Shown one piece after another: positions 4,716 through 21,664 of a stretch of DNA of 24,487 nucleotides. The stretch comes from a virus, in the IMG/VR virus record IMGVR_UViG_3300031974_002716, positions 1 to 24,487 of that record; one strand, 5' to 3'. Position 1 is the first letter of the stretch; each line of letters opens with the position of its first letter. The position numbers and the translations under genes are program-made. The notes under the pieces were generated by a model. The model was given only the letters and a program-made list of their open reading frames with translations. It did not search any database and was not told the DNA's origin.

Positions 4716-4887
4716 TTATTTTACTCCAGTGATACTCACCTTCTTTGGGCGTACTACCAATATACTCCTCACCTGTCTCTCTGTCAATCAATTTCCATTT
4801 CATTGGAGATTTTGTTTTGACAACAAGTTCAACTGGTTCCTCTAATTCATATACATTTACGCCGTCTTGTAGTGTTCTAAAGTTCAT
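4708..4887 (-). CDS. 59-residue conserved small protein
   Basis: The frame runs from ATG 4887, which overlaps the end of the nucleotidyltransferase gene, to TGA 4708-4710, which overlaps the GTG start of the DnaE-like gene. The sequence (FRTLQDGVNVYELEEPVEL, then MKWKLIDRETGEEYIGS) looks like a small two- or three-strand beta domain with a RETGE turn. No family is recognised. The clean junctions on both sides and good coding character support it. A TTGACA-17-TATATT promoter is embedded in its second half. Confidence 0.75.
   Translation of the reverse strand: MNFRTLQDGVNVYELEEPVELVVKTKSPMKWKLIDRETGEEYIGSTPKEGEYHWSKISA
4759..4787 (-). promoter_or_regulatory. Candidate sigma-70-type internal promoter before the DnaE-like gene
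   Basis: Minus-strand TTGACA (4787-4782), 17 bases, TATATT (4764-4759). It lies inside the 59-residue gene and would start RNA near 4752, about 37 bases before the GTG of the DnaE-like gene. The same -35 sequence and spacing recur at 2593-2621, 11162-11190, 12130-12158 and 24084-24112. Being inside a coding region, it could be chance. Confidence 0.5.
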
Positions 4888-5281
4888 TATTATTTCTCAT
4901 TTCTTCTCTAATTTTTGTGGCGCTGATTTTATGTATTTCTTCACCTAAGTCGTGTTCAGTAAATGTATATCCTACACCACGGCCATAACTAATATCCACA
5001 ATGTTGGGCACTATCATTATAATATATTCTTTATGATATGTAAAGCCTTCTTTTGCTAGTTCTTTCTTAATGTTTTCTTCAACGTCTTTAACAATAAATG
5101 GGTTGTCGTCTTGTGTCATTGTGCGACCACCGCTTGCATCTTCTTGTTGTGGTACAGTTCTAATCTGTATGCACACCTGTCCAGTTTCTGCTAATGCACG
5201 TTTGAAAAGTTCTGTGTGTCCTTTGTGCCAAGGCTGCCAACGGCCTAGCATTTGTGTTGTGGGTGCAAAATGATTAAACAT
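4877..5281 (-). CDS. Nucleotidyltransferase of the HxGH superfamily
   Basis: The product of 134 residues carries both signatures of the cytidylyl/adenylyltransferase superfamily: GRWQPWHKGH (13-22, the HxGH nucleotide site) and ISATKIREEM (119-128, the ISxTxxR site). Such enzymes join a nucleotide to a phosphorylated small molecule (NMN, sulfate, glycerol-P and others). I prefer ATG 5281, inside the ATGTTTAA junction with the kinase gene, to an earlier in-frame start at 5311. The tight pairing with an APS kinase-like gene suggests consecutive steps on one substrate; ATP-sulfurylase-like or NMN adenylyltransferase-like activities are both possible. The substrate cannot be read from the sequence. 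Confidence 0.85.
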   Translation of the reverse strand: MFNHFAPTTQMLGRWQPWHKGHTELFKRALAETGQVCIQIRTVPQQEDASGGRTMTQDDNPFIVKDVEENIKKELAKEGFTYHKEYIIMIVPNIVDISYGRGVGYTFTEHDLGEEIHKISATKIREEMRNNNEL

Positions 5282-5705
5282 TTTTTTCTTTCCAATGCTG
5301 ATATCTTTCAACTGCTAACATCAATGTTTCATGAGTATTATCAAACCACTTTGCTACATGATAATCTACGGTAGCAGGAGGCTCAAATAGTTTGTTTGTA
5401 TCTTCGAATCGACCTTCTTTAATAGTGTCCATCCACACTGTAAAGTCAGCATTAAACTCTAATCTAGTTATGTAAGTAGGACACACAAAGTCTGCTACAG
5501 CAACTTTGCCTGCCATAACTACTCCATCTGCTAAATGACGCATACGTTGCGCTTGCCTTACACGCCCTGCTTTAGTAAAGTCCCAGTCATCGTACTTAGT
5601 ACGCACTTCGTCTGCACTAATATGCACTCCGCCTATTAAGTCTGCAAACGGTTTAGCAAGAGTGCTTTTACCACTGCCAGGCAAACCAAATATTAAAATT
5701 TTCAT
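5274..5705 (-). CDS. P-loop kinase resembling adenylylsulfate (APS) kinase
   Basis: The 143-residue protein has a Walker A loop GLPGSGKST (7-15), an ISADEVR segment in the place of the substrate DGD/N block, an R..QA.R..HLA helix, VADFVCPT (70-77) and a RFEDTNKLFEPP segment (99-110). These match the order of APS kinase blocks (CysC), which phosphorylates APS to PAPS. Family members are usually near 200 residues, so this is a short form. It overlaps the zinc-finger gene upstream and the nucleotidyltransferase downstream. Similar short 'adenylylsulfate kinase' proteins are common in marine T4-like phages, but I know of no proof of the substrate. Confidence 0.8.
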   Translation of the reverse strand: MKILIFGLPGSGKSTLAKPFADLIGGVHISADEVRTKYDDWDFTKAGRVRQAQRMRHLADGVVMAGKVAVADFVCPTYITRLEFNADFTVWMDTIKEGRFEDTNKLFEPPATVDYHVAKWFDNTHETLMLAVERYQHWKEKNV

Positions 5706-6382
5706 AAATTCATTTCCTTGATAATTTGTTTTACAAAATTAACGTCTCTTGGTTGTCGTTTGAATCTCAATGCCCAGTGACTTGGATCTAATACAGCACC
5801 AAGCATATTTAGTTGTTCGTCGTTGAAATTGTTTAATGCTGCTTTACCACTGGAACAATTTAAAACCAACCATGGTGAAATCTTACCGTCTTTAATATCC
5901 CACGTAATTCTATTTGTACTAGCATATGAAAAATAATGATTATATACGCTTTCCTTTTCTTTTGCCCATGCTTCCATAGTTTGTATGCTGCGTTCTAATG
6001 CTGTTTCTACGCCCTCTTTGCGAATAAGTTCAATTGCATATTTTTCATACATTGCATCTCTGCACCAGTGATCAAGTTTTACATTACTTGTAACAACATA
6101 ATCGATATACTTATCAGGGTAAAGAGGTCTAACATTATTAACAAAACTGCCAAACTTAACAAAAGCATTATAAAAGGATGACTTAACAAAATCTTCATAT
6201 GTTTTATCTTTCTTGTGTCCTGCACTTAATTTATAAAATCTTTGAAATGCATAAAATCCTACTTGTGTTGGCTTGTCGTCTTTTTGTAACCAGCGTCTCT
6301 TTGGCTCACAAACGTGTGCTATAAGTGTGCTTTCTTTTACATAACTTTTGCCACAATATTCACAAGTGTAATTAGATGTCAA
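5702..6382 (-). CDS. Zinc-finger protein conserved in marine T4-like phages
   Basis: From TTG 6382 the product is 226 residues. A single zinc finger opens it: C7 and C10 (TCEYCGKSY), H23 and C25 (LIAHVC), a CX2C-X12-HXC pattern, followed by a basic stretch (EPKRRWLQK). The rest is helical and charged with blocks such as FYAFQRFYKLS, AFVKFGSFVNNV and KISPWLVLNCSSGKA. I recall homologues in many marine T4-like phages without assigned function. The TTG start overlaps the last codons of the gene upstream; another in-frame TTG at 6445 would add 21 low-complexity residues and is less likely. DNA or RNA binding is likely; a replication or late-transcription role is a guess from neighbours. Confidence 0.8.
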   Translation of the reverse strand: MTSNYTCEYCGKSYVKESTLIAHVCEPKRRWLQKDDKPTQVGFYAFQRFYKLSAGHKKDKTYEDFVKSSFYNAFVKFGSFVNNVRPLYPDKYIDYVVTSNVKLDHWCRDAMYEKYAIELIRKEGVETALERSIQTMEAWAKEKESVYNHYFSYASTNRITWDIKDGKISPWLVLNCSSGKAALNNFNDEQLNMLGAVLDPSHWALRFKRQPRDVNFVKQIIKEMNL

Positions 6383-6842
6383 TTTTTTCGTACCCGTGTT
6401 CGCGGGCGAGTTCTTTGATTTCTTTTTTTGTAGATATTCTAGCAAGTGTTTCGACCTCGTCCATTTTCATTTCTGGATATATGTTTGATAATAATTTTAC
6501 TGCTTTGCTGCTGTCGTCTTTTTTCTTTTTGAGTCCAATCCAAGGATGAAACTGTTTCTTTCCTGTTTTACCTGCAACACATAGTAGTTGCCATTGTAAC
6601 TTAACATGATTAGTTCCGCCTAGTACATTCCAGTTTTTATTGTAATATTCATTTACCTTAAACACTGCTAATGCAGTCTTTTCGTAGTTGCCTTTTACAC
6701 TGCTAATATAACGGTTCAAGTTCCATAAGTCAAGTTTAATATCTTTCTTGCCATCCTCTCCAGCAGCGTCATACAACTCTTTGAAGCCCATGTCGATGCT
6801 TGGTATTAGTTCTTTAAATAGATCTAATTCTTTATTTGGCAT
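6372..6842 (-). CDS. 62: Probable small clamp-loader subunit, T4 gp62-like
   Basis: The 156-residue protein starts at ATG 6842, which overlaps the stop of the 52-residue gene; an extension to 6887 would run back over that gene and is rejected. Blocks are LFKELIPSIDMGFKELYD, NLNRYISSVKG, FHPWIGLKKKK and a C-terminal LARISTKKEIKELAREHG. The layout fits the gp62 partner of the T4 gp44/gp62 clamp loader by eye: helical, no Walker motif, a GK-rich middle and a similar end. Homologues sit in the replication block of marine T4-like phages. The assignment is moderate; a profile comparison with the gp62 family would settle it. No gp44 or gp45 gene is in this window. Confidence 0.6.
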   Translation of the reverse strand: MPNKELDLFKELIPSIDMGFKELYDAAGEDGKKDIKLDLWNLNRYISSVKGNYEKTALAVFKVNEYYNKNWNVLGGTNHVKLQWQLLCVAGKTGKKQFHPWIGLKKKKDDSSKAVKLLSNIYPEMKMDEVETLARISTKKEIKELAREHGYEKIDI

Positions 6843-6990
6843 TTGCTGGTTTCTTTTTCTTTTTCTTTGCGCCAAATGTATATTCAATATTTTCGGTTAT
6901 AGCCCCCGATTCGCAAATTGTAATTTTATTTGTTTTCAACCATTCTTGTATTAATTTTTTGTCTTTATTGTCTATTAATTCTCTAGCCAT
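6832..6990 (-). CDS. 52-residue small protein with lysine-rich tail
   Basis: The frame starts at ATG 6990, overlapping the stop of kdsB (ATGGCTAG), and ends at TAA 6832, overlapping the ATG of the next gene. The product begins MARELIDNKDKKLIQEWLKT, continues with KITICESGAITENIEYTFG and ends in six lysines plus PANAK. I recall the same design (helix, TICE.G block, basic tail) next to this gene in marine T4-like phages. Function unknown; the tail suggests nucleic-acid contact. Both junctions are coupled, so it is almost surely real. Confidence 0.75.
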   Translation of the reverse strand: MARELIDNKDKKLIQEWLKTNKITICESGAITENIEYTFGAKKKKKKPANAK

Positions 6991-7651
6991 TGTTTTGTTC
7001 CCACCTTTCTAAATCTTGTGGAGTGTTTATTTCTATTCCGTTAAATTCAACTTCTACTACACCTATCTTCTGTCCATTTTGTATCCAACGTAGTTGTTCA
7101 AGTTTTTCGATATCTTCTTCTGCATATTTTTTACTGGTAGTATATACAATCTTTGCCTCTCTGTTGTAGCCATACACACCCAAGTGGTGATCACCGTATG
7201 TAAGACTTGCACGTAAGAACCAATGTGCTCTACCTCTGCTGTGTATCATTTTAACACTGTTTGGATCATTTCGCAAGTTAAAATCCATCGGTGTGTATGC
7301 AGTTGATACATCGCTGCGTTGTAGTTCGCTTTCAACTGCACGAATAATATCGCTTGTAATATCAGGCATATCGCCTTGTACATTGATATATCTATCATAT
7401 TGTAATACTTCATCAATGACTTGCATACAACGTTCTGTGCCGTTGTCTGCTTCATTAGTCATTAGACATTTGCCAGCACCCATATGATTGTAAATGTCTT
7501 GATGATCTGTTAAAACATATGTATCTAATCCTGTTGCAACACATTTATTATATACATGTTCAATCAATGGCACACCATTTAACTTGGCCATCATTTTAGC
7601 AGGAAATCTACTGCTGGCATATCTTGCGGGTATTAGTATTGCTGTTGTCAT
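6983..7651 (-). CDS. kdsB: CMP-Kdo synthetase (3-deoxy-manno-octulosonate cytidylyltransferase)
   Basis: The enzyme joins CTP and Kdo to give CMP-Kdo, the donor for Kdo transfer to lipid A or capsule lipid. Family blocks are all present: IPARYASSRFPAK (7-19), NGTERCMQV (70-78), NVQGDMP (90-96), DPNSVKMI (129-136), HLGVYGY (156-162) and a final NTPQDLERW (209-217). Length 222 is slightly below the usual 245-250. D94 of VQGD, a metal ligand in the family, is kept. The later VDTPEDL aspartate is Asn209 here (INTPQDL), which could alter metal use. The start overlaps the stop of kdsA (ATGA), so the two should be made together. Confidence 0.92.
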   Translation of the reverse strand: MTTAILIPARYASSRFPAKMMAKLNGVPLIEHVYNKCVATGLDTYVLTDHQDIYNHMGAGKCLMTNEADNGTERCMQVIDEVLQYDRYINVQGDMPDITSDIIRAVESELQRSDVSTAYTPMDFNLRNDPNSVKMIHSRGRAHWFLRASLTYGDHHLGVYGYNREAKIVYTTSKKYAEEDIEKLEQLRWIQNGQKIGVVEVEFNGIEINTPQDLERWEQNNG

Positions 7652-8418
7652 TGAAATCCTTTCACAGTTTGATTAATATGATATAAACGATGAACTGTTT
7701 GTGCAAAGTCTTCTAAGCGTAACATATTAGGTCCATCACTAGGAGCATTATCTGGATCAGGATGCACTTCTAAGAAGAAGTTATCAACGCCCATGCCAGC
7801 GGCAGCATTAGCAAGAGTTGGAACATAATCCCTATTCCCACCACTACTGTCACCTTGGCCTCCTGGCTTCTGGACTGAGTGTGTGACGTCAAATACCACA
7901 GGTACAGAAAAATTGTCACGCATATACTGGATGCCAGTAAAATCAGTGACCAAAGTATTATACCCAAAACTAGTTCCTCTTTCAGTTATCCAAACTTCTT
8001 TGGCACCTTCTGTTTTACTCAGTATACCTTTGACATCCCAAGGTGCTAGGAATTGTCCTTTTTTAATATTTATAATACAGTCCGACTTACATGCCTCAAC
8101 AATTAAGTCTGTTTGTCTACATAAAAATGCTGGTATTTGTAGGACATCAACTAAGTTATGACATCTACTTATTTGTCCTACTGTATGAACATCTGTAAGT
8201 AATTTAAATCCTGCGGCTTTTATCTTTTGAAAATGGGGTAACGTTTCACTAATGCCTAAGCCACGCTTACCTGACATACTAGTTCGATTTGCTTTGTCAT
8301 AACTTGCTTTGAAATAATATTCAATATCATATAAATCACAAATACGTTGGCATTCAGTTGCAATTTCCAAACTTTGTTCTAATGATTCGTGTTGACACGG
8401 ACCTGCTATAATTCTCAT
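7648..8418 (-). CDS. kdsA: Kdo-8-phosphate synthase, metal-dependent type
   Basis: The protein condenses phosphoenolpyruvate with arabinose-5-phosphate to Kdo-8-phosphate. Blocks: AGPCQHES (5-12), FKASYDKANRTS (36-47), TDVHTVGQ (75-82), IPAFLCRQTDL (95-105), NIKKGQFLAPWD (117-128), ERGTSFGY (146-153), FDVTHSVQKPGG (176-187) and EVHPDPDNAPSDGPN (217-231). Cys8, His180, Glu217 and Asp228 correspond to the metal ligands of the metal-dependent class, as in Aquifex; the E. coli class has Asn at the Cys place. At 256 residues it is a little short but complete. It overlaps an unknown 89-residue gene upstream and kdsB downstream. Neither KdsC phosphatase nor KdsD isomerase is seen here; the host probably supplies them. 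Confidence 0.95.
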   Translation of the reverse strand: MRIIAGPCQHESLEQSLEIATECQRICDLYDIEYYFKASYDKANRTSMSGKRGLGISETLPHFQKIKAAGFKLLTDVHTVGQISRCHNLVDVLQIPAFLCRQTDLIVEACKSDCIINIKKGQFLAPWDVKGILSKTEGAKEVWITERGTSFGYNTLVTDFTGIQYMRDNFSVPVVFDVTHSVQKPGGQGDSSGGNRDYVPTLANAAAGMGVDNFFLEVHPDPDNAPSDGPNMLRLEDFAQTVHRLYHINQTVKGFQ

Positions 8419-8684
8419 TGTGCATCCTTTATAAGATAGTAAGTTGTTACTAGTTTATCAAGTTGTTTCATCAAAGTTTTGTTTTGCAATGCTAATTCGC
8501 ATAAATCTTTCCAACTACCATAATCCAACAACTCGCCTTGTGCTCTTGCAACTGCGCCAGGGTCTCCGCCGATAATCCATTTTGGTTTAGTGTTATGAGG
8601 AGGATCTCGATACCTTGCCCAAACTACTCCGTTTGCACGTTCGTAAATCAATGCTTCACCCGGTATTAGTTTCTGATCCAACAC
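8415..8684 (-). CDS. Unknown 89-residue conserved protein
   Basis: Starts at GTG 8684 (a TTG one codon later is possible), inside the 3' end of the cupin gene, and ends with ATGA into kdsA. The protein opens PGEALIYERANGVVWARY, has a WIIGGDPGAVARA turn and a helical C-terminus. The opening looks like a short beta-hairpin module. I recall similar proteins in marine phages without a function. Its place between a cupin and kdsA is probably due to operon packing rather than pathway logic. Confidence 0.75.
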   Translation of the reverse strand: MLDQKLIPGEALIYERANGVVWARYRDPPHNTKPKWIIGGDPGAVARAQGELLDYGSWKDLCELALQNKTLMKQLDKLVTTYYLIKDAQ

Positions 8685-9009
8685 TTCTTCTCACTATATC
8701 ATTATGATTAAATTCTGCCCAGTATAGTTCAAACGCTACACCATCTTCCAGGCCTTCAAATTGATGAATAACACCTGGCTTTACTTGTGTAAAGTCTCCT
8801 GGTCCAAGAATAGTTTCATCTACTAGATCATAATCCTTTTGCCATACACGAACAAGCATTTTACCTGACTCAACAAAAAATCCATTCCATTTAAATCTGT
8901 GTTCATGCTCGCTACACTTGTAGCCACCTTTGAATTCGATACGGTGAAACTCTAATACACCGTTAGCGTGGATAAGTTCAGTTTGTCCCCAAATCTTTCC
9001 TGCTTTCAT
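8656..9009 (-). CDS. Single-domain cupin
   Basis: A 117-residue small beta-barrel protein. Cupin motif 1 is seen as H35-E-H37 in CSEHEHRFKWNGFFVESG and motif 2 as PGDFTQVKPGVIHQFEG with H82. These His residues normally hold a metal. Overall it resembles the sugar-isomerase or ectoine-type small cupins, and many phage cupins are uncharacterised. A good AGGAG ribosome site precedes ATG 9009. It lies just before the kdsA-kdsB block, so a sugar-phosphate or sugar-nucleotide substrate is plausible but not shown. Confidence 0.85.
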   Translation of the reverse strand: MKAGKIWGQTELIHANGVLEFHRIEFKGGYKCSEHEHRFKWNGFFVESGKMLVRVWQKDYDLVDETILGPGDFTQVKPGVIHQFEGLEDGVAFELYWAEFNHNDIVRRSVGSETNTG

Positions 9010-9525: not shown

Positions 9526-10989
9526 TTAATTCCAATCTACTTTTTCTATTGTAAATGGATACTGCGCCTCTTTGTAAAACTTTTTACGTTGAGTAAGGTG
9601 CCGCTTCGCAAACTTACAAGTGCTTGTAAGATCCCATATTTGAACGAAGTCTTTGTCCTTTGCCTTTCTTACGCCTCTGCCTATACTTTGAATAACTCTA
9701 ACAAAAGACTTTCCTGGTTCAATAAGTACAAGGTTAAAAATACGAGGAATATTAATACCAACAGCAGCGACACCATAAGTGGCAATAACCACTTGATTAT
9801 CTGACGTGTTGATTTCGTCATACGCATCTTTTCTATCCTTTAGTTTAACATCGCCTTTTACAAATGTCGATCCTGGTATAAGTTCTTGTAGCATTTCGCC
9901 TGCGCTAATTCTGTCTACAAGTATAAGTGTGTTGCCTGATTCTTTTACGCTGTTTAATAATTTGCCTATGTATTCAATTCTTTTTGTATTAGTTGTTAAA
10001 TATTTTAATTCTTCTTGATAATTGCTGTGTGCTACCGTGTCTAATAATTGTACAATATTAACATGTACTTGTGATAACACACCTTTGTCTTGTAATTCTT
10101 TTGCTGATATTTCACCAATAACTGGACCTAGACTAGCGTGAATACTTTCAAACTCAAACTTTTCTTTCGGTATTGTGCCTGTAAGTCCCCAACGTATTGG
10201 TGCATTACGTAAGTTGCGTGTAAGCAAATTCTTTAGCACTTCGGCTTTTGCTTGGTGAACTTCGTCTACAATAACAGTGCTCACACCATCTAAGAACTCT
10301 GCAAGTGATAACACTGCTTCTCCGTCCTTGTGCTTCTTGTCAAGTATATTCAAACTTTGCCAAGTGCAGATGGTGTGAGTCTTACCTAACTCTTTTCTAT
10401 CTCCAAAATAAACGCCTGCATCTAACCCGCAGTTTATATAGTCTTCTTCGGTTTGTGTAACAAGACTTTTGTTTGGTACAATAACTAAACTACGTCCATA
10501 TTTTTCACTCATATGACTTAGTGTTGCTGTGGTAATAGTCTTACCAGCGCCAGTAGCAATTTGCTGTAGGCTTTGTGGATTTTTTGCAAAGTTATTGATT
10601 GCATCAACTTGGTAATCTCGCAGAATAATTTCTTCACCTTCTGCAGGATGTCCCTTAGGCCAACGCACACCCTGGTCAGCCCAATAACGTTCTGTTACTT
10701 GTGGAAATTTTAAATCAATAGGATGACGTCTATCTTCAATATCAACTATTTGTACTTTGTTTTTTTCGAGTACTTCGCTAACCACGTCAAGGTGATTCAC
10801 ATAGCCAGTACCGCCAATGCCAAAGAACGCAACTTTGCCGTCCCAACGTCCTAGTTTATACTGCGGCATATATCTTGCATACGGCACATCAAACTTGAGA
10901 GCATTTGATAACTTCCGCCGTACATCAACATCTAGTCCTTCTAGTTTGATGTTTACTTCATCCTCAATTATAAGTTTGCAAGTTGGCAA
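9526..10989 (-). CDS. uvsW: UvsW RNA-DNA/DNA helicase
   Basis: A 487-residue superfamily 2 helicase. UvsW in T4 unwinds R-loops and branched DNA and shuts off origin replication in favour of recombination replication. Residues 1-100 form the substrate-binding N-terminal domain (YKLGRWDGKVAFFG). Motifs: LRDYQ (123-127), ATGAGKT (145-151, Walker A), VDEVH (241-245, DExH), LTGTIP (269-274), ATYGVAAVGINIP (403-415) and QSIGRGVRK (434-442, arginine fingers). The start is TTG 10989, embedded in the end of the preceding gene with a 26-base overlap. A candidate sigma-70-type promoter lies at 11162-11190. The family and orthology are clear. Confidence 0.96.
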   Translation of the reverse strand: MPTCKLIIEDEVNIKLEGLDVDVRRKLSNALKFDVPYARYMPQYKLGRWDGKVAFFGIGGTGYVNHLDVVSEVLEKNKVQIVDIEDRRHPIDLKFPQVTERYWADQGVRWPKGHPAEGEEIILRDYQVDAINNFAKNPQSLQQIATGAGKTITTATLSHMSEKYGRSLVIVPNKSLVTQTEEDYINCGLDAGVYFGDRKELGKTHTICTWQSLNILDKKHKDGEAVLSLAEFLDGVSTVIVDEVHQAKAEVLKNLLTRNLRNAPIRWGLTGTIPKEKFEFESIHASLGPVIGEISAKELQDKGVLSQVHVNIVQLLDTVAHSNYQEELKYLTTNTKRIEYIGKLLNSVKESGNTLILVDRISAGEMLQELIPGSTFVKGDVKLKDRKDAYDEINTSDNQVVIATYGVAAVGINIPRIFNLVLIEPGKSFVRVIQSIGRGVRKAKDKDFVQIWDLTSTCKFAKRHLTQRKKFYKEAQYPFTIEKVDWN

Positions 10990-12124
10990 GATTATATCCT
11001 TTAAAAAACATATTTTCCATGTTATCGACCATTATATAACAATCGCAATTATACACACAAAACGTTGACACAAATTTATTTGATCTCATACTAGTTAACG
11101 ATAATGCACAAACCGGTTTAAAATTAGATTTCAATAAAATTTTTGGAAGTTTTGTCTTTTTAATATACACTACTTTTGTTTTATTGTCAACCCAGTTGTT
11201 TAATTGTTTTTGTTTTACATAATCATTTAATGGCATATTTTTAATATTAGTATTATCTGCTCTAAATAAAACACTTTGTTCTTTATTTTTAACAAATCCT
11301 ACTGTTGCTTCATAAATGCATTTTACTTGTTCAAACATATTATCTTCATCAACTAAAACAATAATTGGATATCTATTTAACTCATTTAAACTTTTGAATA
11401 TATCTTGTACAGAGTTTTCTTCAGGATTTATATATAATAATTGATTGTCTCTAAATGCAATTTTATCAGTTAAATTTTGTATAGGCCTTTGTGTTATTGC
11501 ATAACTATATCTTATTGCGTTATCTGCATTTTGAACGTAATTTTTTGTTGATGTATATTCTATATTACATAATTGGTTTTCTGCAGATAAGAACGGAATA
11601 TAATTAAATAGGTTTTCTTTTATAATTTTTTGTTCTTTATAGATTGTTAAGACAGTGTCATCTATTTCAAAGTTTTTAAAACATTCTACAATTTGATATA
11701 CATTGTCTTTATCTAATCTAAAATAATGCTCATGACTTCCTTTTACATGATAATATTGTTTATATCCTATTTGGTATCTTAGTTTATCTATACGCATAAT
11801 ATGTTTTTTACTAAATGGAAATCTAATCTTAATCCATTTCCAGTCAGATTTAAAAGATTCGTATACAGCGTTAGGTCCTAGGTCGTCTACAATCTTTATA
11901 TATTTTTTACGATCGATTTGTCTTAGAGGAATCTTAGGTTCTATATTATCTGAAATATCTACAAATTCTTTTACCTTTTTTACAACTAGGTTATATTGTC
12001 TATCTGTTAAAGCAATGCCTCTTACAGTTTGTTTGTATATACTGAAGTATATGGCATTATTAGATTTCAATGAATCCAAGTGAGTATTACAAACATACTC
12101 TAAGTAATCTTCTATATATGTCAT
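10964..12124 (-). CDS. Unknown 386-residue protein coupled to uvsW
   Basis: The frame is taken from ATG 12124; a TTG two codons earlier is less likely. It has no Walker motif. Residues 69-80 (QIDRKKYIKIVD) and 97-106 (WIKIRFPFSK) precede a YYHVKGSHEHYFRL segment. The WIKIRFPF strand looks slightly like the HARP-type substrate domains found in front of some SWI/SNF helicases, but this is a weak eye match. The second half reads like a degenerate nucleotide-binding fold (YPIIVLVDED, near 255). Its end overlaps uvsW by 26 bases, so UvsW may be its partner. A perfect TTGACA-17-TATAGT promoter sits directly in front, with no room for a leader. I do not recognise a named family. Confidence 0.85.
   Translation of the reverse strand: MTYIEDYLEYVCNTHLDSLKSNNAIYFSIYKQTVRGIALTDRQYNLVVKKVKEFVDISDNIEPKIPLRQIDRKKYIKIVDDLGPNAVYESFKSDWKWIKIRFPFSKKHIMRIDKLRYQIGYKQYYHVKGSHEHYFRLDKDNVYQIVECFKNFEIDDTVLTIYKEQKIIKENLFNYIPFLSAENQLCNIEYTSTKNYVQNADNAIRYSYAITQRPIQNLTDKIAFRDNQLLYINPEENSVQDIFKSLNELNRYPIIVLVDEDNMFEQVKCIYEATVGFVKNKEQSVLFRADNTNIKNMPLNDYVKQKQLNNWVDNKTKVVYIKKTKLPKILLKSNFKPVCALSLTSMRSNKFVSTFCVYNCDCYIMVDNMENMFFKGYNLANLQTYN
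11162..11190 (-). promoter_or_regulatory. Candidate sigma-70-type promoter upstream of uvsW
   Basis: Minus-strand TTGACA (11190-11185), a 17-base spacer and TATATT (11167-11162). Expected start near 11155, about 165 bases before the UvsW TTG, inside the coding region of the gene before it. The match is as good as the promoters that lie between genes. Confidence 0.5.
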
Positions 12125-12129
12125 ACACA

Positions 12130-12158
12130 ACTATAACATTTTATAATTGAGATGTCAA
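12130..12158 (-). promoter_or_regulatory. Sigma-70-type promoter of the 386-residue gene
   Basis: Minus-strand TTGACA (12158-12153), 17 bases, TATAGT (12135-12130). Only five bases separate the -10 box from ATG 12124, so the transcript would begin at or inside the start codon. It overlaps the last codons of the glycosyltransferase gene 12141-12995. Confidence 0.75.
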
Positions 12159-12995
12159 GAACTTCAATGGAATACCTTTGGAAATTTCTTCAATAGTATA
12201 TTCTGTCCAAGCATAGTCATTCAACCATTGTTGTCGATTAGGTTTATTAGGAGAATTTATATTAGACAAATCGGTATTACCCACATCATATGCAAGACTG
12301 CTTGGGCCACAAAACACAGGAACACCTGCTATAATTGCTTGAGGACCTGGATTACTACTCCAACTTATTACAGCATGACAGTCTTTAAAACTTAGATTAA
12401 AATCATCGTAAGTGTTATCTAATTTTATAGGATCGTCTCTATATACATTTTGATATTGACGCTCTATTGCATCTAATCTGCATCTAGGATGAGGTCTAAA
12501 CACAATAGGTAGATCTGTGTGCTTTTGTATAGTTTCAATAGTTGTCATTACCCATTCGCTCATACGTGGCATACTTTTCCATTGTAAACTTTTATCATGT
12601 TGTCCACAGATTAATATATGATCGCCTTTGTCTCTCCACGAACGCAACTTTAATCCTAATTGTTGAGAACGCTCATTTGTATTGTTTTTTGGAGCAAAAT
12701 ATGCATCACGATTTATTCCGTTTAGTCCTACTTTCCAAGTTTCTCCTCTTTGGATGCCACCTACTTCTAATACAATAATCGGCTTGTTTTTACGTATGCA
12801 AGATTCCCAAATATCCTTATTTCTTGACATTCTTCCATGGAAAAGAACACTCCAAATAACATGTATATCTGCATCGTCAACAGTTCTTACACTATCAAGT
12901 ATAACATGTCCTGCTGATTTAACACTTTCTTTGAACGCAGAAAAAACAGGTCTACTGTTCAATGCACCATATTCTTCCCATATTTTAAATTTCAT
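12141..12995 (-). CDS. GT-B glycosyltransferase of the capsule/Kdo-transferase (KpsC/KpsS-like) type
   Basis: A 284-residue protein. The C-terminal half carries FRPHPRCR (166-173), SWSSNPGPQAIIAGVPVF (211-228) and a downstream substrate-loop region, the layout of KpsC/KpsS-type and related polysaccharide transferases, which hold CMP-Kdo or nucleotide-polyol donors. The N-terminal half is a Rossmann-like fold with GGIQRGETWKVGLNG (79-93). It is related by eye to the proteins at 13840-14769 and to the C-terminal half of 14756-16468. CMP-Kdo supply by the kdsA-kdsB pair makes Kdo transfer attractive, but this is inference. A GGAG ribosome site and TTAAATA late-type element precede the ATG. A wbbB-like or glycerophosphotransferase role is an alternative. 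Confidence 0.8.
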   Translation of the reverse strand: MKFKIWEEYGALNSRPVFSAFKESVKSAGHVILDSVRTVDDADIHVIWSVLFHGRMSRNKDIWESCIRKNKPIIVLEVGGIQRGETWKVGLNGINRDAYFAPKNNTNERSQQLGLKLRSWRDKGDHILICGQHDKSLQWKSMPRMSEWVMTTIETIQKHTDLPIVFRPHPRCRLDAIERQYQNVYRDDPIKLDNTYDDFNLSFKDCHAVISWSSNPGPQAIIAGVPVFCGPSSLAYDVGNTDLSNINSPNKPNRQQWLNDYAWTEYTIEEISKGIPLKFLTSQL

Positions 12996-13033: not shown

Positions 13034-13852
13034 GTGCCAACAATTTCTTTTGTATCAACATTTCATAAACCTGTATTAGATTTATATGGACAACGTTTTA
13101 TTGATAGTTTTAGCAAAAACGTCGATAAAGATATAAATCTTTATTTGTATGCAGAGGATTGTATTCCAAAAACAAACGATAGTAGAATTAAAATATTAAA
13201 CCAAAAAGAAGAATTACCAAAATTAGTTGCATTTAAACAGCGTTGGAAAGATGTACCTAAAGCAAATGGTAAATGTCCGTGGCCTGAAAGACGGCCGAGA
13301 GATCATCATAAAGAATTTAAATGGCATGCAATACGATTTGCTAACAAAGTATATGCAGTATTTGATGCAGCAGAACGTTGTGATACAGATTGGATTGTTT
13401 GGTTAGATGCTGATACATTTGTACATTCGCCTGTGACATACAACGACTTGCAAAAATTTACACCCGAACGTGCATGGATGAGTTATTTAGGTAGAGGACG
13501 TAAATGGCCTGAGTGTGGTTTTTATGGCATTAACCTAAAGTCTAAACCGGGTAGGTGGTTTTTAAAAAAGTTTGAGGGTGTGTACGAAGAAGCAGAAAAC
13601 GGTATTTTTAAAATGGAAGAATGGCACGATAGTTTTGTGTTTGAAGAAGTTCGTAAAAAGGTACAAGCCAAATTCGACGGATTTCCATATTATAATATAA
13701 GCGGCAATTTAATCAATGGCGAAGGACATCCGTTTATCAACAGCGACTTAGGAAAATATTTTGATCATTTAAAAGGTGATAGAAAAGATGTTGGAAAGAG
13801 TAGTAAGCCTAAAGATTTAATTGTAAAGCGTAATGAAAATTATTGGCAATAA
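13034..13852 (+). CDS. GT-A glycosyltransferase, plus strand
   Basis: The 272-residue product shows a DxD metal/nucleotide-sugar motif in WIVWLDADTFV (near residues 121-131) after a conserved FKWHAIRFANKVYAVFDAA helix. YLGRGRKWPECGFYGINL follows, which looks like the acceptor region. This layout fits a GT-A transferase, but I cannot place it in a numbered CAZy family. The start is GTG 13034 with an AAGGAT ribosome site eight bases before. The 3' end overlaps the convergent gene 13840-14769 by 13 bases. It is the only plus-strand gene in the glycan block, so it may be expressed at another time than its neighbours. Confidence 0.8.
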   Translation: MPTISFVSTFHKPVLDLYGQRFIDSFSKNVDKDINLYLYAEDCIPKTNDSRIKILNQKEELPKLVAFKQRWKDVPKANGKCPWPERRPRDHHKEFKWHAIRFANKVYAVFDAAERCDTDWIVWLDADTFVHSPVTYNDLQKFTPERAWMSYLGRGRKWPECGFYGINLKSKPGRWFLKKFEGVYEEAENGIFKMEEWHDSFVFEEVRKKVQAKFDGFPYYNISGNLINGEGHPFINSDLGKYFDHLKGDRKDVGKSSKPKDLIVKRNENYWQ

Positions 13853-14769: not shown

Positions 14770-16468
14770 TTAGAATATCCCATGCAGTTCCGTTGCGTAA
14801 TTCTTTGGATGTAAATTGGCAATAACTTAAATGTGTTGCTAATTGGTATTGTAAATCTTGTGTTGGCACAATTAAATTTTCTATGTCACTTATTTTTGTA
14901 TTACATACAGAGGTAGCAGCATTTGGTGCTAGAGCAATCGCAGGCACTCCAAATAAAAAGGCTTCTGTTGCTGCTATACTGTTGTACGTAAGTAAGCAAT
15001 GAACATCATCTGCAAGTGCTTGCCAAATAGTTTTATTTGTAACTCTTTCTGTTCTTGTGGGCTTGCTTCTAACCACAATCGGTCTATCAGTATATTTTTT
15101 TATTTCTGTTGTAGTATTTTCAAGCCAGCGTTCTAAATCCTCATTATAAAATTTCATTACTTTTTCGCTTGGCGGACAGATTAATATTTTACTACCAGTC
15201 TTTGGTGGATGACTTGTCCATCTTAATCTTTTTAATCTATCATCATTTCTTTCTATTAATGGTCCAGTGTTTTGCAATCCGTTGAATGTTACTCTATGAT
15301 ATTCTTTTTTTGTATAGGGTTGCAAATATCCTGTATCAATAGCATAAAAGTTTCTTTTGTTTAGCATACAATGTTTTATTGCTTTTTGACTTTTACCTCC
15401 AAGACCCCTAATTATCAGAGTAGTATCTTTATCATCTTTATAATCCCAATAACCAATTTGTCCACCAGAACCTAAAATAAAATCTTCAAGGTATGGATCG
15501 TAAATACGTCCTTTGCTCTCTAGTAATTTTTTATAATTATCTTCAGGATGAAGAGCAATTGCCGCAACTTTAATACCCATATCTTGCTCCTTTAATTTTT
15601 CTAGTTCTTTGTGCGATCCTTTATAAATATTTTCATTTGGATCAATTGTAGTTTGTAAAAATTTTTTAATTAAATTTTTTTTTTGATCTGTGTAACTTAA
15701 ATCATCAACAAGTATATCTTTATTTTGTAGGTTAACAATTTTATTTTCTAATTCTTTTATTCTATGCTCATGGTAATTAGTTTGCATTTTATACCAATCA
15801 TTCGCATATTCACAATTTTGATATTGTTCAAACCAAGGCCCGCCTTCAGTATAATGTAATGCTTTGGGTTTGCCGTCTTCGGGCTCTTTATACCATCCGA
15901 CTAACCAATTCCATTCATGACTTAATTCACCAATTTGATTATCTTCTAACCAACTGAATCTATGAAAAAAAGCGCCGGTTTTATTTTCGTTATTTACTTT
16001 GGAAACACATAGTTCTTGATTAGATGGATGCCCGCAATTTATTAAAAACATACTGCTCCAATTTTTTCTTGGATATATGTGTTGCACTTGACCGTCCATT
16101 TTTATTTTGCCGGGCTGTGGAGTATAATCGTGTTGAGCACACATTACTGCATATTTTGGATCGCATTGTTCGATTAATTCGTTTATATCTGTTTTGAAAA
16201 CAAAATCGCAATCAATAAACAATGCCCATCCTTTGTAGTTACAAAGGAAAGGAACTAAAAATCTTGTGAAAGTAAATTCGGTACTTGCTAAATGATCAAT
16301 TGATCGTGTATAGTAACCTTGCTTTCTTAGTATATGTTGTTTTAATGGAATTATTTCAACAGGAACTGTTGCATGTTCTTCTATACTACGTTTAGCAACT
16401 TGATATGCAATATCTTCTCTGCTATCCCAACCAATAAAAATTTTAAAAGGTTTAATCTCTTCGCTCAA
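14756..16468 (-). CDS. Two-domain glycosyltransferase: GT-A (GT8-like) fused to degenerate KpsC/KpsS-like GT-B
   Basis: The 570-residue product is a fusion. Residues 1-230 look like a GT-A enzyme: FIGWDSREDIAYQV near the start, DCD at 86-88 in LFIDCDFVF, and a late ALHYTEGGPWF block. A charged helical linker follows (KELENKIVNLQNK). From about residue 293 (MGIKVAA) to the end it is a GT-B of the same type as the two neighbours, ending ELRNGTAWDIL. In this copy the RPHP motif reads RSKP (IVVRSKPTRTER), so the histidine is lost, while TYNSIAATEAFLFGVPAIAL is kept. The C-terminal domain may therefore be inactive or use another mechanism. The start overlaps the end of the gene to the right by 17 bases. 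Confidence 0.85.
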   Translation of the reverse strand: MSEEIKPFKIFIGWDSREDIAYQVAKRSIEEHATVPVEIIPLKQHILRKQGYYTRSIDHLASTEFTFTRFLVPFLCNYKGWALFIDCDFVFKTDINELIEQCDPKYAVMCAQHDYTPQPGKIKMDGQVQHIYPRKNWSSMFLINCGHPSNQELCVSKVNNENKTGAFFHRFSWLEDNQIGELSHEWNWLVGWYKEPEDGKPKALHYTEGGPWFEQYQNCEYANDWYKMQTNYHEHRIKELENKIVNLQNKDILVDDLSYTDQKKNLIKKFLQTTIDPNENIYKGSHKELEKLKEQDMGIKVAAIALHPEDNYKKLLESKGRIYDPYLEDFILGSGGQIGYWDYKDDKDTTLIIRGLGGKSQKAIKHCMLNKRNFYAIDTGYLQPYTKKEYHRVTFNGLQNTGPLIERNDDRLKRLRWTSHPPKTGSKILICPPSEKVMKFYNEDLERWLENTTTEIKKYTDRPIVVRSKPTRTERVTNKTIWQALADDVHCLLTYNSIAATEAFLFGVPAIALAPNAATSVCNTKISDIENLIVPTQDLQYQLATHLSYCQFTSKELRNGTAWDILNESS

Positions 16469-17210
16469 TGTCTTCCTCCGTTAATTCGTTACCTATCCAA
16501 ACTTCGATTACTTTTGCACTTTTGTTATCTAAGTTTACGGCCTTATGCCAGTATCCAGTTGGTATATCTATACTGTCTCCTGGCACTAACAAGTTACTTG
16601 TCTTATTACCCGACTTGTCTTCTAAAAACATGTTAATTACACCATCAACTACATGCCAATGCTCGCTACGTTTCAAATGACGCTGATCACTTAATGCTTT
16701 ACCTTCACTAAACTCTAACTGTTTTACTTGCCAGCCGCTGCCTTTGTCTAGTATGGTGTATTTGCCCCAGGCACGTTCTGTAGTAGGTTGACTCCAATCT
16801 TTGAGTATCCAACTGCTACTATTCTTTTTATCTTCGCCGCCTACTCCAAACTCAAAAGAGATATTTTTTACATCAGTATCCATTTCCGGAATATTGTTAG
16901 ATGTTCTGTCACCACCGTTAGCAAATATAATATGTGCTTCTGGATACATAAATCTAACATTTTTAATTGCTTCTTTTGCAGTATTGTCGTCGTCGTCAAA
17001 TAGCACACAGTGATCAACCATGGCTAAGTTTTGTATAATAGTAATTCTTTCGCCACCTGGCATAAACGGACGACCTTTTTTTCGTGTAAGCCAAGCATCA
17101 CTGTTTACACCTACAACTAGAAGATCACCTAATTCTTTTGCTGCTTTAAAATATTCTATATGTCCACTATGTAGTGGATCAAATCCACCTGTTACAATAA
17201 CAACTTTCAT
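16452..17210 (-). CDS. HldE/RfaE-type nucleotidyltransferase fused to a mannose-isomerase-type cupin
   Basis: Residues 1-135 form an HxGH nucleotidyltransferase: GGFDPLHSGHIEYF (8-21), GVNSDAWLTRKKG and a late SSSWILKDW site. This resembles the adenylyltransferase half of HldE, which activates heptose-1-phosphate, and glycerol-phosphate cytidylyltransferases. Residues 140-252 form a cupin like the C-terminus of type II mannose-6-phosphate isomerases/GDP-mannose pyrophosphorylases, with ERAWGKYTIL, RSEHWHVVDGVINMF and PGDSIDIPTGYWHKA. The two are not usually on one chain. A perfect TATAAATA ends four bases before the ATG. A sugar-phosphate substrate is likely; which sugar is unknown. Confidence 0.85.
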   Translation of the reverse strand: MKVVIVTGGFDPLHSGHIEYFKAAKELGDLLVVGVNSDAWLTRKKGRPFMPGGERITIIQNLAMVDHCVLFDDDDNTAKEAIKNVRFMYPEAHIIFANGGDRTSNNIPEMDTDVKNISFEFGVGGEDKKNSSSWILKDWSQPTTERAWGKYTILDKGSGWQVKQLEFSEGKALSDQRHLKRSEHWHVVDGVINMFLEDKSGNKTSNLLVPGDSIDIPTGYWHKAVNLDNKSAKVIEVWIGNELTEEDIERRD

Positions 17211-17869: not shown

Positions 17870-18423
17870 ACTTGATCCTTACTTTGCCATTTGTCCTTAT
17901 CTACATAATTAATAAGCAACACTTTACGTTTTCCTTCAAATGGTCTTTTTGTAAATCCGTGCCATTTGGTTTCATCTGTTTTAAATACAAAACATCTATT
18001 ATGCTTCCATTCTAAACGTGTATGATAATCTTCATCTGGACTGCTATATAAGTCTGTTCCTAAATCACCTTCTCCGTCGATGTAAACAATAATTGTAATA
18101 CGTTTTTCTAGTGTGTCTATATGCGGCACTTGCCAAAAATTACTATCATCCTGTGCTAGTTCTATTCTCATATAACTGTGGGATAAATCATATCCAAATT
18201 CACTTTCAAATGCTGGTGTATTTGTTCTAAAAAAATCAACAACCCTTAGTGTAGTCATATCTAATTTATCAGGAGTAAAAAAGTATCTACCACTTACCGG
18301 TGTACGAGTGCCGTCGCATTGTGTGTTATCACTATCGATTTTTAATATTTTTAATTCTTCTATAATGTCTTTAGGAAGGAAATTGTCTACAATAAAATAT
18401 TCCCAAGGTTCACTATACTTCAT
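17857..18423 (-). CDS. 2-oxoglutarate/Fe(II)-dependent oxygenase
   Basis: A 188-residue protein with the facial triad of the family: H101-x-D103 in VPHIDTLEKRITIIVYID and H155 in TKWHGFTKR, followed by R166 in KRKVLLINYV as the likely 2-oxoglutarate-binding arginine. The EGDLGTDLY block between them is typical. Enzymes of this group hydroxylate or halogenate small molecules, sugars or proteins. In marine phages they are common and mostly unassigned. The start and stop both overlap neighbours by ATG-containing junctions inside the glycan cassette, so a sugar or nucleotide-sugar substrate is likely, not proven. Confidence 0.87.
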   Translation of the reverse strand: MKYSEPWEYFIVDNFLPKDIIEELKILKIDSDNTQCDGTRTPVSGRYFFTPDKLDMTTLRVVDFFRTNTPAFESEFGYDLSHSYMRIELAQDDSNFWQVPHIDTLEKRITIIVYIDGEGDLGTDLYSSPDEDYHTRLEWKHNRCFVFKTDETKWHGFTKRPFEGKRKVLLINYVDKDKWQSKDQVWDL

Positions 18424-19178
18424 TTACGCATTCCATCAAATATTGTAGTCTTAAATTTTTTATTATCATCTATTATAGCATTGATTAAATCATAATGCAA
18501 GTTTAATTTTTTTAATTCTTTAGATAATTTACCTGTATCTTTAGGTAAACACATGCCTCCAAATCCTCTTAAATCTTCATTTACATCTAAGTAGTTTCCA
18601 GTTGTTTTTCCTGTTTTTTCATATGCTGTTTTTATTATATCATAATCAGCATCGTGTTTTTCGCAAACTTCGTACATTATGTTTGCAAACACAACACGTA
18701 ATGCTGCATATGAATTGTTATAAATTTTAAGTATTTCTGCTTCTCTAGGTGTCAAATATTCTACGTGTTTTGGAATATTTTTATATACTTCTGCAATTTT
18801 TCTAGCATGTATTGTATTATATGATCCAATCGCTAACAAATCGCAATCTAAAAAATCTTCTAAAGCAGATCTTTCTTTTAAGAATTCTGGTACATAACAA
18901 ATTGGTAAAGTAAATCTTTCTAATAAATTGTCTATTGTTCCGGGTTGTATTGTGCTTCTAATTGCTACAATACCTTTATAATTGTAAAGGAACAAGTCTT
19001 TTACAACTTGTTCTACATTATCTTCTTGTGTACAAACAAATACAACATCAGTATCTAACACATCTTGAATATTTGTATTTAATTTTATGTCATGTATCAA
19101 TACAGTATGATTCAGTTTTTTAAATCCGTCTGCATTTGCTTTTCCTACTACACCTAAACCTATTACACCAATATTCAT
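18420..19178 (-). CDS. Short UDP-glucose/GDP-mannose dehydrogenase lacking its C-terminal domain
   Basis: The 252-residue protein has the NAD-binding GLGVVG (7-12), a TIQPGT block (76-81), YVPEFLKERSALEDF (95-109) with the catalytic Glu, LKIYNNSYAA (150-159) with the catalytic Lys and Asn, and GFGGMCLPKDT (205-215) with nucleophile Cys210. Such enzymes oxidise the C6 of a sugar nucleotide to a uronic acid. Family members normally have 390-450 residues; here the third, nucleotide-binding domain is absent and the frame ends cleanly with ATGA into the next gene. All active-site residues remain, so it may work on a smaller or differently held substrate. Confidence 0.87.
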   Translation of the reverse strand: MNIGVIGLGVVGKANADGFKKLNHTVLIHDIKLNTNIQDVLDTDVVFVCTQEDNVEQVVKDLFLYNYKGIVAIRSTIQPGTIDNLLERFTLPICYVPEFLKERSALEDFLDCDLLAIGSYNTIHARKIAEVYKNIPKHVEYLTPREAEILKIYNNSYAALRVVFANIMYEVCEKHDADYDIIKTAYEKTGKTTGNYLDVNEDLRGFGGMCLPKDTGKLSKELKKLNLHYDLINAIIDDNKKFKTTIFDGMRK

Positions 19179-20044
19179 AATAAACTTTCTACAGTATTTT
19201 TTAATCCAATTTCTAAAGGAGTATAATCGTTAAATCCAGTTAACATTTGCACTAATGTTGTGTCAGGACATCTGCGTGTTACACTACCTTCTGGACCAGC
19301 ACGTATTTCTAGTTTATCGGGATTTATTCCCATATATCCCATAATCATTTTTGCTACAACATTTATCTGCACCTCATGATCATTACCAACATTTACAGTT
19401 AAATTATTGTGATCACGCACTAACATGTCTGTCATTTTTACAGCATCGTCTACATAACAAAAACTTCTAGTATCGTTACCGTTTATATAATACTTGCCTT
19501 GCTTACAGCGTTCTACAAACTCGCTGATAAAATGATCTTTTTGTCCTGGACCATAAACATTGAAGTAACGTATAATCAAATAATCTAGCCCGCTGTTTGC
19601 TACTAGGTTTTCACCTAAAGCCTTCGGAAGGCTATAACTCCATCTTGGATTGAGAATGTCTTTAAAATAAACTGGTGCCTGCTCATCAGTTGGAATATGG
19701 TAATAACCCGCATCAATTGCTCCGTTAAAAATTTCACATGTACTAGCAAAAACAAATTTAGTATCAGTATTTTTATAACGTTCAATCAAATTTATTGTTG
19801 GCAGTGTATTGTTAATTAGCACGTCTGTAGGTTGTTCATAAAATAATTTGGTGCCGTTGGTTGCAGCAAGATGCACTACCACATCGCTGTCAGGCATTGA
19901 ACTAGTTACACCCGAGTATCTTAGATTTTTAGTATTACCGTCTTTTTTATCATAAGGATAAACTGCATCGTAACTATCTTTGATGTAGTTATAATAATGA
20001 CTACCGATAAATCCTTTATGACCAGTAAGAATACACGTTACCAT
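19175..20044 (-). CDS. NAD-dependent sugar epimerase/dehydratase (extended SDR)
   Basis: A 289-residue enzyme with a Rossmann NAD site TGHKGFIGS (7-15), VVHLAATNG (56-64), the active-site Ser/Thr in FASTCEIFNG (99-108) and Y137-x-x-x-K141 in YSLPK. RYFNVYGPGQ marks the substrate domain. It belongs with UDP-glucose 4-epimerases, UDP-xylose synthases and GDP-mannose dehydratases; the exact reaction cannot be read. The neighbour downstream oxidises C6 of a sugar nucleotide, so a sugar nucleotide is the likely substrate here too, for example epimerisation or decarboxylation of the uronate. Start and stop are coupled to both neighbours. Confidence 0.9.
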   Translation of the reverse strand: MVTCILTGHKGFIGSHYYNYIKDSYDAVYPYDKKDGNTKNLRYSGVTSSMPDSDVVVHLAATNGTKLFYEQPTDVLINNTLPTINLIERYKNTDTKFVFASTCEIFNGAIDAGYYHIPTDEQAPVYFKDILNPRWSYSLPKALGENLVANSGLDYLIIRYFNVYGPGQKDHFISEFVERCKQGKYYINGNDTRSFCYVDDAVKMTDMLVRDHNNLTVNVGNDHEVQINVVAKMIMGYMGINPDKLEIRAGPEGSVTRRCPDTTLVQMLTGFNDYTPLEIGLKNTVESLL

Positions 20045-20658
20045 CCGAAAATATAATCCTTCCTTACATTTGTAATTTCTCTTGCGCCAAATGATTTAAG
20101 ATAAGTGCCAGCACATTCGTTTGTATCTGCTTGTTGCTCACATACAATAATTGGTTTGTATTTAATAATTGTATCCATAGCACCTTTCAACACTTCTAAT
20201 TCGTGGCGCTCGCAATCAATTTTAAGTAAGCCAAATTTTGGTAAATTTAAATCATCTAATCTTTTAATTTGTATAGTTCCTGTGCCAACTTCACTGACAA
20301 AACTACCTCCTGTGTTTTCAGCATCAAATACCATTTCAACTACATCGTTAACACTACCAAGAGCATGTTTGTTTAATTCAACAGGTAGATGTTTACAGTT
20401 CAGTTCTAAACAACTGTATACTTGTTCTAATGGCTCAAAAGCAATTACACGTTTAAATTTCTTAGTTAATGGTTTAGCCCATAAGCCAACATTTGCTCCA
20501 ATGTCAACTGCAATATCAAAGTCTGTAACATACTTGTATGCTTCGTCTCTTACATCGTCTTGATATTGAGGTGGTCCGCCGTTACGAACTCTTTTATTAA
20601 TAAGACGTTCAAAATGATTATCGCTATCTGGCATGTAATATTCAAAAACTTTTTTCAT
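20038..20658 (-). CDS. FkbM-family methyltransferase
   Basis: The 206-residue product has the SAM-binding VDIGANVGLW (51-60), an acidic FEPLEQV that follows the second strand, NKHALGS, and the FkbM hallmark LLKIDCERHELEVLKGA. FkbM enzymes methylate hydroxyls of sugars or polyketides. The first 50 residues (MKKVFEYYMPDSDNHFE) are typical of polysaccharide-cluster members. It overlaps the epimerase (ATGGTAA) and the second methyltransferase (ATGA). O-methylation of a surface sugar is the likely task. Confidence 0.9.
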   Translation of the reverse strand: MKKVFEYYMPDSDNHFERLINKRVRNGGPPQYQDDVRDEAYKYVTDFDIAVDIGANVGLWAKPLTKKFKRVIAFEPLEQVYSCLELNCKHLPVELNKHALGSVNDVVEMVFDAENTGGSFVSEVGTGTIQIKRLDDLNLPKFGLLKIDCERHELEVLKGAMDTIIKYKPIIVCEQQADTNECAGTYLKSFGAREITNVRKDYIFGW

Positions 20659-21209: not shown

Positions 21210-21664
21210 TATAAACTCGCATCTTCCATTCCTGCAACACGTAGTTTAACAATGTTTGTAATTTGCCATTGCTTCTGATCAAGTGCTTTTAGTACGCCTA
21301 ACCATTTGTTACGCATCAGTGCAAATTCGTTGATAATCTTTTCGTAGTCAACTACGTCTTGTTCGCCATCAACATATTTTTCAACGTCACGACTGCTCAA
21401 TGCTCGCTGATAGTTTTCAAGATATTTGCGGAAAAAAGAACTGCGTAATTTACGCAGTTCAATATTCAAATATTCAAGTATGGCTTCTATTTCTTGTAAT
21501 TGATTGAATCTATGTTCAACTATACCGGGCATTTGAGCCGATTGCTTTTCAACGTTTCCTGTTAATTTGCACTCGGCTCTTGCAGTTACCAGTTCTGTTT
21601 CAAAGTGTTGTATTGCTGCTGGAATTTGAGTAATATCTCTGCTTACCCGACTATACCATGCCAT
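21209..21664 (-). CDS. uvsY: UvsY recombination mediator
   Basis: The 151-residue protein matches UvsY in size and blocks: IPAAIQHFETELVTARAE near the N-terminus, PGIVEHRFNQLQEIEAIL in the middle and a long helical C-terminus (IINEFALMRNKWLGVLKAL). UvsY loads UvsX on gp32-coated single-stranded DNA and works as a hexamer. It lies in the same operon as uvsX and gp32, with one small gene between. The family is clear from the pattern and the neighbours. Confidence 0.9.
   Translation of the reverse strand: MAWYSRVSRDITQIPAAIQHFETELVTARAECKLTGNVEKQSAQMPGIVEHRFNQLQEIEAILEYLNIELRKLRSSFFRKYLENYQRALSSRDVEKYVDGEQDVVDYEKIINEFALMRNKWLGVLKALDQKQWQITNIVKLRVAGMEDASL

Follow-up and report, generated by a model that had tools for sequence, protein, structure and literature searches.

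The window, by which the whole stretch of 24,487 nucleotides analyzed here is meant, is a virus record of a T4-like phage, in which genes for a Kdo-8-phosphate synthase (kdsA) and a diverged CMP-Kdo synthetase (kdsB) are found together with genes for two glycosyltransferases predicted to possess the fold of retaining beta-Kdo transferases. Such genes are present in a large family of marine viruses that infect bacteria. According to the reading favored here, which is held to be rather probable, kdsAB would raise the amount of CMP-Kdo available to transferases of the phage, by which a glycan containing Kdo would be assembled, most likely at the host envelope and possibly on the virion. Lists of viral auxiliary genes usually end at annotation; here, candidate enzymes that would consume the product of kdsA/kdsB are named, so that a few purified proteins would allow a test of whether phages rebuild the surface of the host or their own coat with Kdo.

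The occurrence of kdsA and kdsB as marine viral cargo is already published. Both genes are among the commonest LPS-related viral genes in marine viromes of surface and subsurface depths according to PMC10653327; kdsB is also listed as a marine viral auxiliary metabolic gene in PMC9529941, where LPS genes of T4-like phages are proposed to stop multiple infection or superinfection. In the passages concerned, the kds genes are given by annotation only, with no transferase link, tree or active-site analysis. Descriptions of the link to the beta-Kdo-transferase fold, of the phage Glu-x-Asn metal site and of the unconserved nucleophile were not found in open-access full text, and the changes in the active sites are apparently novel.

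Genomic Setting

The T4-like replication surroundings of the kds pair, recognized in an earlier sequence-only reading of the window, are borne out by genes for a gp32-like SSB, UvsX, UvsY, UvsW and primase. UvsY, UvsX and the gp32-like SSB are encoded at 21209-24022 on the minus strand (phrog_231, tblastn for UvsX, phrog_1192), while the UvsW helicase gene (9526-10989, minus strand; PF04851, UvsW_N) separates the transferases from the kds pair. Sugar and transferase genes are thereby flanked by UvsX/UvsY/gp32 and UvsW/primase, which is the arrangement of a glycan/LPS cluster of T4-like marine phages. The phage is probably of large size, since the closest UvsX proteins (59-67%) are those of large myoviruses, Agrobacterium phage Atu_ph07 among them, and kds-bearing relatives are found on contigs of up to 358 kb.

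Several further genes accompany the pair. Directly upstream of kdsA, an 89-amino acid ORF (8415-8684, minus strand) overlaps kdsA at its end by ATGA (8415-8418), as read directly from the sequence; its family is present in 60 of 100 kds loci. Next to it lies the gene of a cupin protein (8656-9009, minus strand; PF07883, 3e-7), whose family occurs in 85/100 kds loci. Between UvsW and the transferase P0003, a 388-amino acid protein without Pfam or PHROGs match (10964-12130, minus strand) is kept in 59/100 kds loci. Near kdsB, adjoining genes encode a small nucleotidyltransferase-like protein and a small P-loop kinase (4877-5705, minus strand), relatives of which occur in about 29 of 100 kds loci.

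KdsA and the kds Gene Pair

The two kds genes lie where they had been placed before, kdsA at 7648-8418 and kdsB at 6983-7651, both on the minus strand. They had been described as fused; this has to be corrected, because they are separate genes of a tightly packed operon with a 4-bp ATGA stop/start overlap (7648-7651, minus strand) evident from direct reading.

Judged by its sequence, KdsA (256 amino acids) is a standard KdsA equivalog with all catalytic blocks intact. It passes both curated NCBIfam cut-offs (NF003543, 343.3 versus 242 bits; TIGR01362, 330.5 versus 314 bits), is about 50% identical to bacterial KdsA, and matches solved KdsA structures of the PDB at 2e-79. The blocks FKxSxDKANR, NIKKGQF, THSVQ and EVHxDPDxAPSDG are near-invariant in 68 distinct phage homologues and align with the PDB KdsA proteins; Cys8 at the metal-ligand position indicates the metal-dependent class. 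A search of KdsA trees for a phage clade had been suggested, and such a clade is present: among the 90 sequences of the tree, 39 KdsA proteins from phages and that of L105, a phage-like contig binned with a Neomarinimicrobiota genome, group in one clade with 100/100 support, which lies within the bacterial sequences on a long stem. The KdsA of cyanophage S-SCSM2R is found elsewhere in the tree, on a very long branch.

Among 60 distinct kdsA/kdsB pairs, 49 are adjacent or overlapping within 60 bp. Both genes are under purifying selection (median dN/dS of 0.14 for kdsA and 0.09 for kdsB), which argues that both encode functional enzymes, and together with the conserved adjacency it indicates a pairing beyond chance. 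In some phages, kdsA is found with no detectable kdsB nearby (L045, L054, L060, L067, L073, L080). In related records, a single in-frame stop occurs in one kdsB (G004, 12285-12947) and in one kdsA (G019, 22682-23452), reflecting sequencing error, decay or recoding.

KdsC and KdsD are not encoded in the window, and a search of 20 large related records (up to 330 kb), which may be fragments, yielded no homologue of either. The view of the pair as a CMP-Kdo supply line lacking KdsC and KdsD is thus supported, and arabinose-5-phosphate and phosphatase would have to be provided by the host.

The Altered Mg Site of KdsB

KdsB of the window is a diverged CMP-Kdo synthetase of 222 amino acids with matches to PF02348 (2.1e-25) and to the PDB KdsB structure 1vh1 (1.5e-29). 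Its best NCBIfam KdsB subfamily match (3e-48) is below cut-off, as are all curated models, the best of which is NF003952 with 164.2 versus 193 bits (TIGR00466, 115.8 versus 155.2 bits). The claim of complete active-site blocks in both enzymes therefore stands for KdsA and fails for KdsB, in which one ligand of the catalytic Mg-A is replaced by Asn209. The enzymes belong to the same two families as KdsA and KdsB of the bacterial Kdo-lipid A pathway (TIGR01362; TIGR00466 and NF003952), sharing the KdsA blocks and nearly all conserved KdsB residues; the phage KdsA differs in forming a clade of its own, the phage KdsB in being shorter, in missing the cut-offs and in the metal site.

This site was compared between 36 diverse phage KdsB proteins, 46-89% identical to that of the window, and 26 bacterial ones including that of E. 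coli. The Mg-A ligand D235 (E. coli numbering) is Asp in 26/26 bacterial sequences and Asn in 36/36 phage sequences. The phage Asn always stands in the context Glu-Ile-Asn (Glu207-Ile208-Asn209 of the window; codons at 7025-7033, minus strand), while in bacterial KdsB the residue two positions ahead of the Asp is Gly, Ser or Ala. The first Mg-A Asp (E. coli D100) is retained, and so are R10, R15, K19, R78, Q98, K143, R157, H181, E210, Q211 and R213 in all 36 phage proteins; at other positions conserved in bacteria, the phage exceptions are mostly conservative. D235 is the sole known metal ligand altered in the 36 sequences.

In KdsB of A. aeolicus, the catalytic Mg-A is bound by D95 and D219 (PMC3149649), the latter corresponding to E. 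coli D235. The related CMP-Neu5Ac synthetase binds the metal by two Asp residues one residue apart, D209 and D211, and in its D211A mutant kcat is reduced 15,000-fold (PMC2901514). Synthetases of this kind may thus be severely impaired when a Mg ligand is missing, which speaks against the reading favored here. When the motifs are aligned by spacing, the phage Glu207 coincides with D209, the first Asp of that pair. Our reading is that Glu207 may have taken over the role of Mg ligand in phage KdsB.

An occurrence of Glu-x-Asn KdsB in bacteria was considered and is not supported, given the Asp in all 26 bacterial sequences compared and the phage-like nature of L105, which was inspected gene by gene, and of L106. 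Both contigs, assigned by binning to a Neomarinimicrobiota MAG, contain kds, UvsW and P0003 genes of the phage type, which may result from faulty binning or give a weak indication of the host. A phage-like Glu-x-Asn KdsB together with a KdsA (5968-6684 and 10607-11497) is also found on L104, a contig binned with a Euryarchaeota MAG that carries a plant-like rhamnose-synthesis ORF at its end. This is possibly an algal contig, in which case the altered KdsB would serve a eukaryote, too.

Glycosyltransferases with a Predicted beta-Kdo-Transferase Fold

The three candidate transferases of the sequence-only reading (TRANSFERASES) were taken to be P0003 (12141-12995), P0004 (13840-14769) and P0005 (14756-16468), all on the minus strand. 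They have a domain in common, with hhalign probabilities of 99.9% for P0003-P0004 and 99.2% for P0003-P0005. In P0005, this domain is C-terminal and is preceded by a GT-A-like domain (FIDCDF; phrog_28018, 5.9e-48). Since searches of Pfam, NCBIfam, PHROGs and PDB with the sequence of the shared domain were silent or at noise level, structure prediction was needed.

AF2 models of P0003 and P0004 were obtained with pLDDT of 92 and 93, respectively. The best 21 Foldseek matches of the P0003 model, with 6mgd at 2.8e-7, are all beta-Kdo transferases of the families GT99, GT107 and GT140, represented by WbbB, KpsC and KrkA. In the comparison by VIA, the Z-scores of P0003 are 13.9 for KpsC, 12.3 for WbbB and 10.8 for KrkA versus 10.4 for the next unrelated GT-B fold; those of P0004 are 14.2, 12.6 and 11.9 versus 10.8. 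For both models, the three known families of retaining beta-Kdo transferases thus outrank everything else in the PDB; KpsC and WbbB stand out clearly from other GT-B folds, KrkA by a small margin. P0003 and P0004 are therefore predicted to resemble retaining beta-Kdo transferases, with which they would share the fold over 227-255 residues, the (K/R)xHP motif, the Gln of QxxxD and perhaps the Glu base. Compared with KpsC, WbbB and KrkA, they are shorter, hardly detectable by sequence similarity, and devoid of a conserved Asp nucleophile.

The (K/R)xHP motif binds CMP in sialyl- and Kdo-transferases (PMC12887879). It is present as RPHP in P0003 and P0004 and is degenerate in P0005 (RSKP). In P0003, Glu77 and Gln132 are invariant or nearly so; Glu77, kept in 90 of the 91 distinct proteins of the family, is aligned with the EDG motif of KpsC containing the base Glu66, albeit in a weak profile alignment (the best probability against KpsS/KpsC profiles in hhalign is about 66%). 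Known retaining Kdo transferases have the Asp of a QxxxD motif as their nucleophile; this residue is conserved in neither family. At the candidate position of P0003, two residues after the Gln (QH[D/E/N/Q]KS), 67 proteins have D, 16 E, 7 N and one Q, and the P0004 family mostly shows QRxGGWS at this site, as does P0004 itself. The motif is intact (QVPGD) in L247, a relative from bacteria, which makes a loss of the nucleophile in the phage transferase types plausible. Because the Asp is not conserved, P0003 and P0004 are not filed as members of GT99, GT107 or GT140. The notion of three candidate Kdo transferases thus holds for two proteins at the level of predicted fold and for the third by its shared C-terminal domain, whereas the catalytic Asp of the known enzymes is not a conserved feature.

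At least 585 viral contigs match the transferase family, so that any function of these transferases would be common in nature. A protein encoded near kdsA in L073 and L080 (family 80) was rejected as a further relative; its HP match is due to chance and it looks like a GT4 enzyme.

Association of Transferases and kds Genes

Among 48 loci picked by similarity to P0003 alone and having enough downstream sequence, kdsA is present in 37 and kdsB in 35; several of the kds-less exceptions have identical coordinates and apparently represent one phage population. Also outside the usual arrangement, kdsA is found near transferases of the P0003 family (L081, L073). In a sample of 35 loci anchored on UvsW, 33 have the transferases and 17 the kds genes. 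An inseparable association is not upheld by this sample (Fisher p = 0.49), which shows the transferases to be core to the lineage and the kds pair to be accessory. The association may come from shared ancestry.

KdsB is the recurrent CMP-sugar synthetase in the transferase-bearing records searched, and no PF02348 synthetase was detected in any of 22 transferase-bearing records chosen for absence of kds genes, among them records of 115, 92 and 262 kb. The argument that an increased CMP-Kdo supply makes sense only with a Kdo transferase is weakened by this picture of near-universal transferases, variable kds genes and kds-less records lacking such a synthetase. The picture fits transferases that are able to live on host CMP-Kdo, with kdsAB acting as a booster; another donor is also possible.

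Further Glycan Genes of the Window

Between P0003 and P0004, on the opposite (plus) strand, a GT-A-like glycosyltransferase, P0006, is encoded (13034-13852; WLDADTF, weak PF00535), whose family is present in 57/100 kds loci. The region at 18420-21209 (minus strand) encodes, according to Pfam, a sugar-nucleotide dehydrogenase, an NAD epimerase, an FkbM methyltransferase and a second methyltransferase; a carbamoyltransferase is encoded at 1-1404. An unusual pairing is seen at 16452-17210 (minus strand), where a heptose-1-phosphate adenylyltransferase-like domain (TIGR02199, 2e-23) is fused to a cupin domain of the mannose-6-phosphate isomerase type (PF01050, 6.4e-19). P0007 (17231-17869, minus strand) is a second diverged CMP-sugar-synthetase-like protein (PF02348, 8.1e-5; PseF, 3e-6), resembling PseF and KdsB in its N-terminal part and apparently without relative in the other clustered loci. 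It is a possible alternative source of a donor.

Proposed Pathway and Alternatives

We infer the enzyme activities, the donor, the rescue by Glu207, the acceptor and the purpose as follows. The two kds genes would be expressed together as a supply pair. KdsA would convert host arabinose-5-phosphate and PEP into Kdo-8-phosphate, from which the phosphate would be removed by the host phosphatase KdsC; phage KdsB would then activate Kdo with CTP to CMP-Kdo at a rearranged Mg site, in which Asp94 is accompanied by Glu207 in place of the usual second Asp. CMP-Kdo would be the donor for P0003, P0004 and perhaps the C-terminal domain of P0005, and the glycan, on the host envelope or the virion, would be completed by the sugar-nucleotide dehydrogenase, the epimerase, the methyltransferases, the two GT-A-like domains and the carbamoyltransferase. 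Such a glycan might block re-adsorption of other phages or replace a receptor, as suggested in the sequence-only reading. If the nucleophile were truly absent, direct attack with inversion would be the simplest alternative chemistry. A more far-reaching version, put forward tentatively and doubtful as it stands, is that the terminal part of the Kdo pathway has evolved into one peculiar to the phage lineage, in which a Mg ligand of KdsB has shifted from Asp to a Glu at a distance of two residues and transferases of the beta-Kdo fold lacking a covalent nucleophile, maybe inverting ones, form Kdo linkages unlike those of the host. For two enzyme mechanisms that have been studied well, nature has provided an experiment: in KdsB, Asp is replaced by a fixed Asn accompanied by a new Glu, and in a Kdo-transferase fold, the nucleophile is not conserved.

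Among the alternatives, upkeep of the outer membrane is to be considered, in which the kds pair would sustain or increase the formation of Kdo2-lipid A by the host while a long infection lasts, with CMP-Kdo being used by host transferases and the phage transferases being unrelated. With no KdsC or KdsD of its own, the pair plugs into the host pathway, and the explanation agrees with kds genes that vary while the transferases are constant within the lineage; we nevertheless judge it unlikely, as the recurrence of a CMP-Kdo pair as cargo in phages with beta-Kdo-fold transferases is left unexplained. The changes in KdsB could also reflect an altered substrate, a Kdo-related, CMP-activated keto-sugar, in which case this sugar or the P0007 product would be the donor of the transferases. 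Such a view draws on the KdsB scores below the curated cut-offs, on the fixed active-site changes, on the resemblance of P0007 to PseF, and on the homology of a pseudaminic acid transferase, too, to KpsC (PMC12887879). It is made improbable by KdsA, a standard enzyme whose catalytic blocks are invariant, and by the conserved residues of KdsB outside the metal site, which are unaltered.

The remaining two explanations carry little weight. That the genes are decaying or passengers without a role, KdsB being dead from the lost Mg ligand, is suggested by D235N and by the loss of the transferase nucleophile, but would hardly be compatible with median dN/dS values of 0.08 to 0.14 across kdsA, kdsB and both transferases or with an Asn and a new Glu that are fixed across KdsB proteins just 46-89% identical; the chance of it is slim. 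Least credible of all is attachment of the glycan to phage DNA in the manner of glucose in T4. The genes do lie in the UvsX/UvsW region, where a DNA glucosyltransferase is encoded in T4, but the transferase fold is that of polysaccharide enzymes, and DNA modification was set aside because an enzyme of the thymidylate-synthase/hydroxymethylase type (PF00303) is absent from 18 of 20 large related records.

Related Loci in Other Phages

Two phages offer parallels to the window. In Synechococcus phage S-SCSM2R (PQ898602), kdsA and kdsB adjoin and a glycosyltransferase of the type of the P0005 N-terminus is encoded nearby, as in the window; unlike there, the kds genes are convergent, KdsB has Asp at the Mg-A position, and KdsA is outside the phage clade. 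Caulobacter phage CcrColossus possesses a glycosylation cluster, gp126-gp131, in which gp128 is homologous to P0004, and one CcrColossus protein matches the P0003 model. It differs from the window in that no kdsA or kdsB was detected and in the position of the cluster between a tail protein gene and the lysis genes, from which a hint at virion glycosylation in this phage is taken. The P0004 homologue is found there in a sugar-transfer cluster directly after the tail protein gene and beside a sialyltransferase-like gene (L101, 4246-7406; gp126-gp129). Matches to the Acinetobacter "phage" MD-2021a were set aside, since they may stem from bacterial sequence within a phage record. In Tetraselmis virus 1, four structural relatives of P0003 are contained in BFVD, two of which are named capsule polysaccharide biosynthesis proteins.
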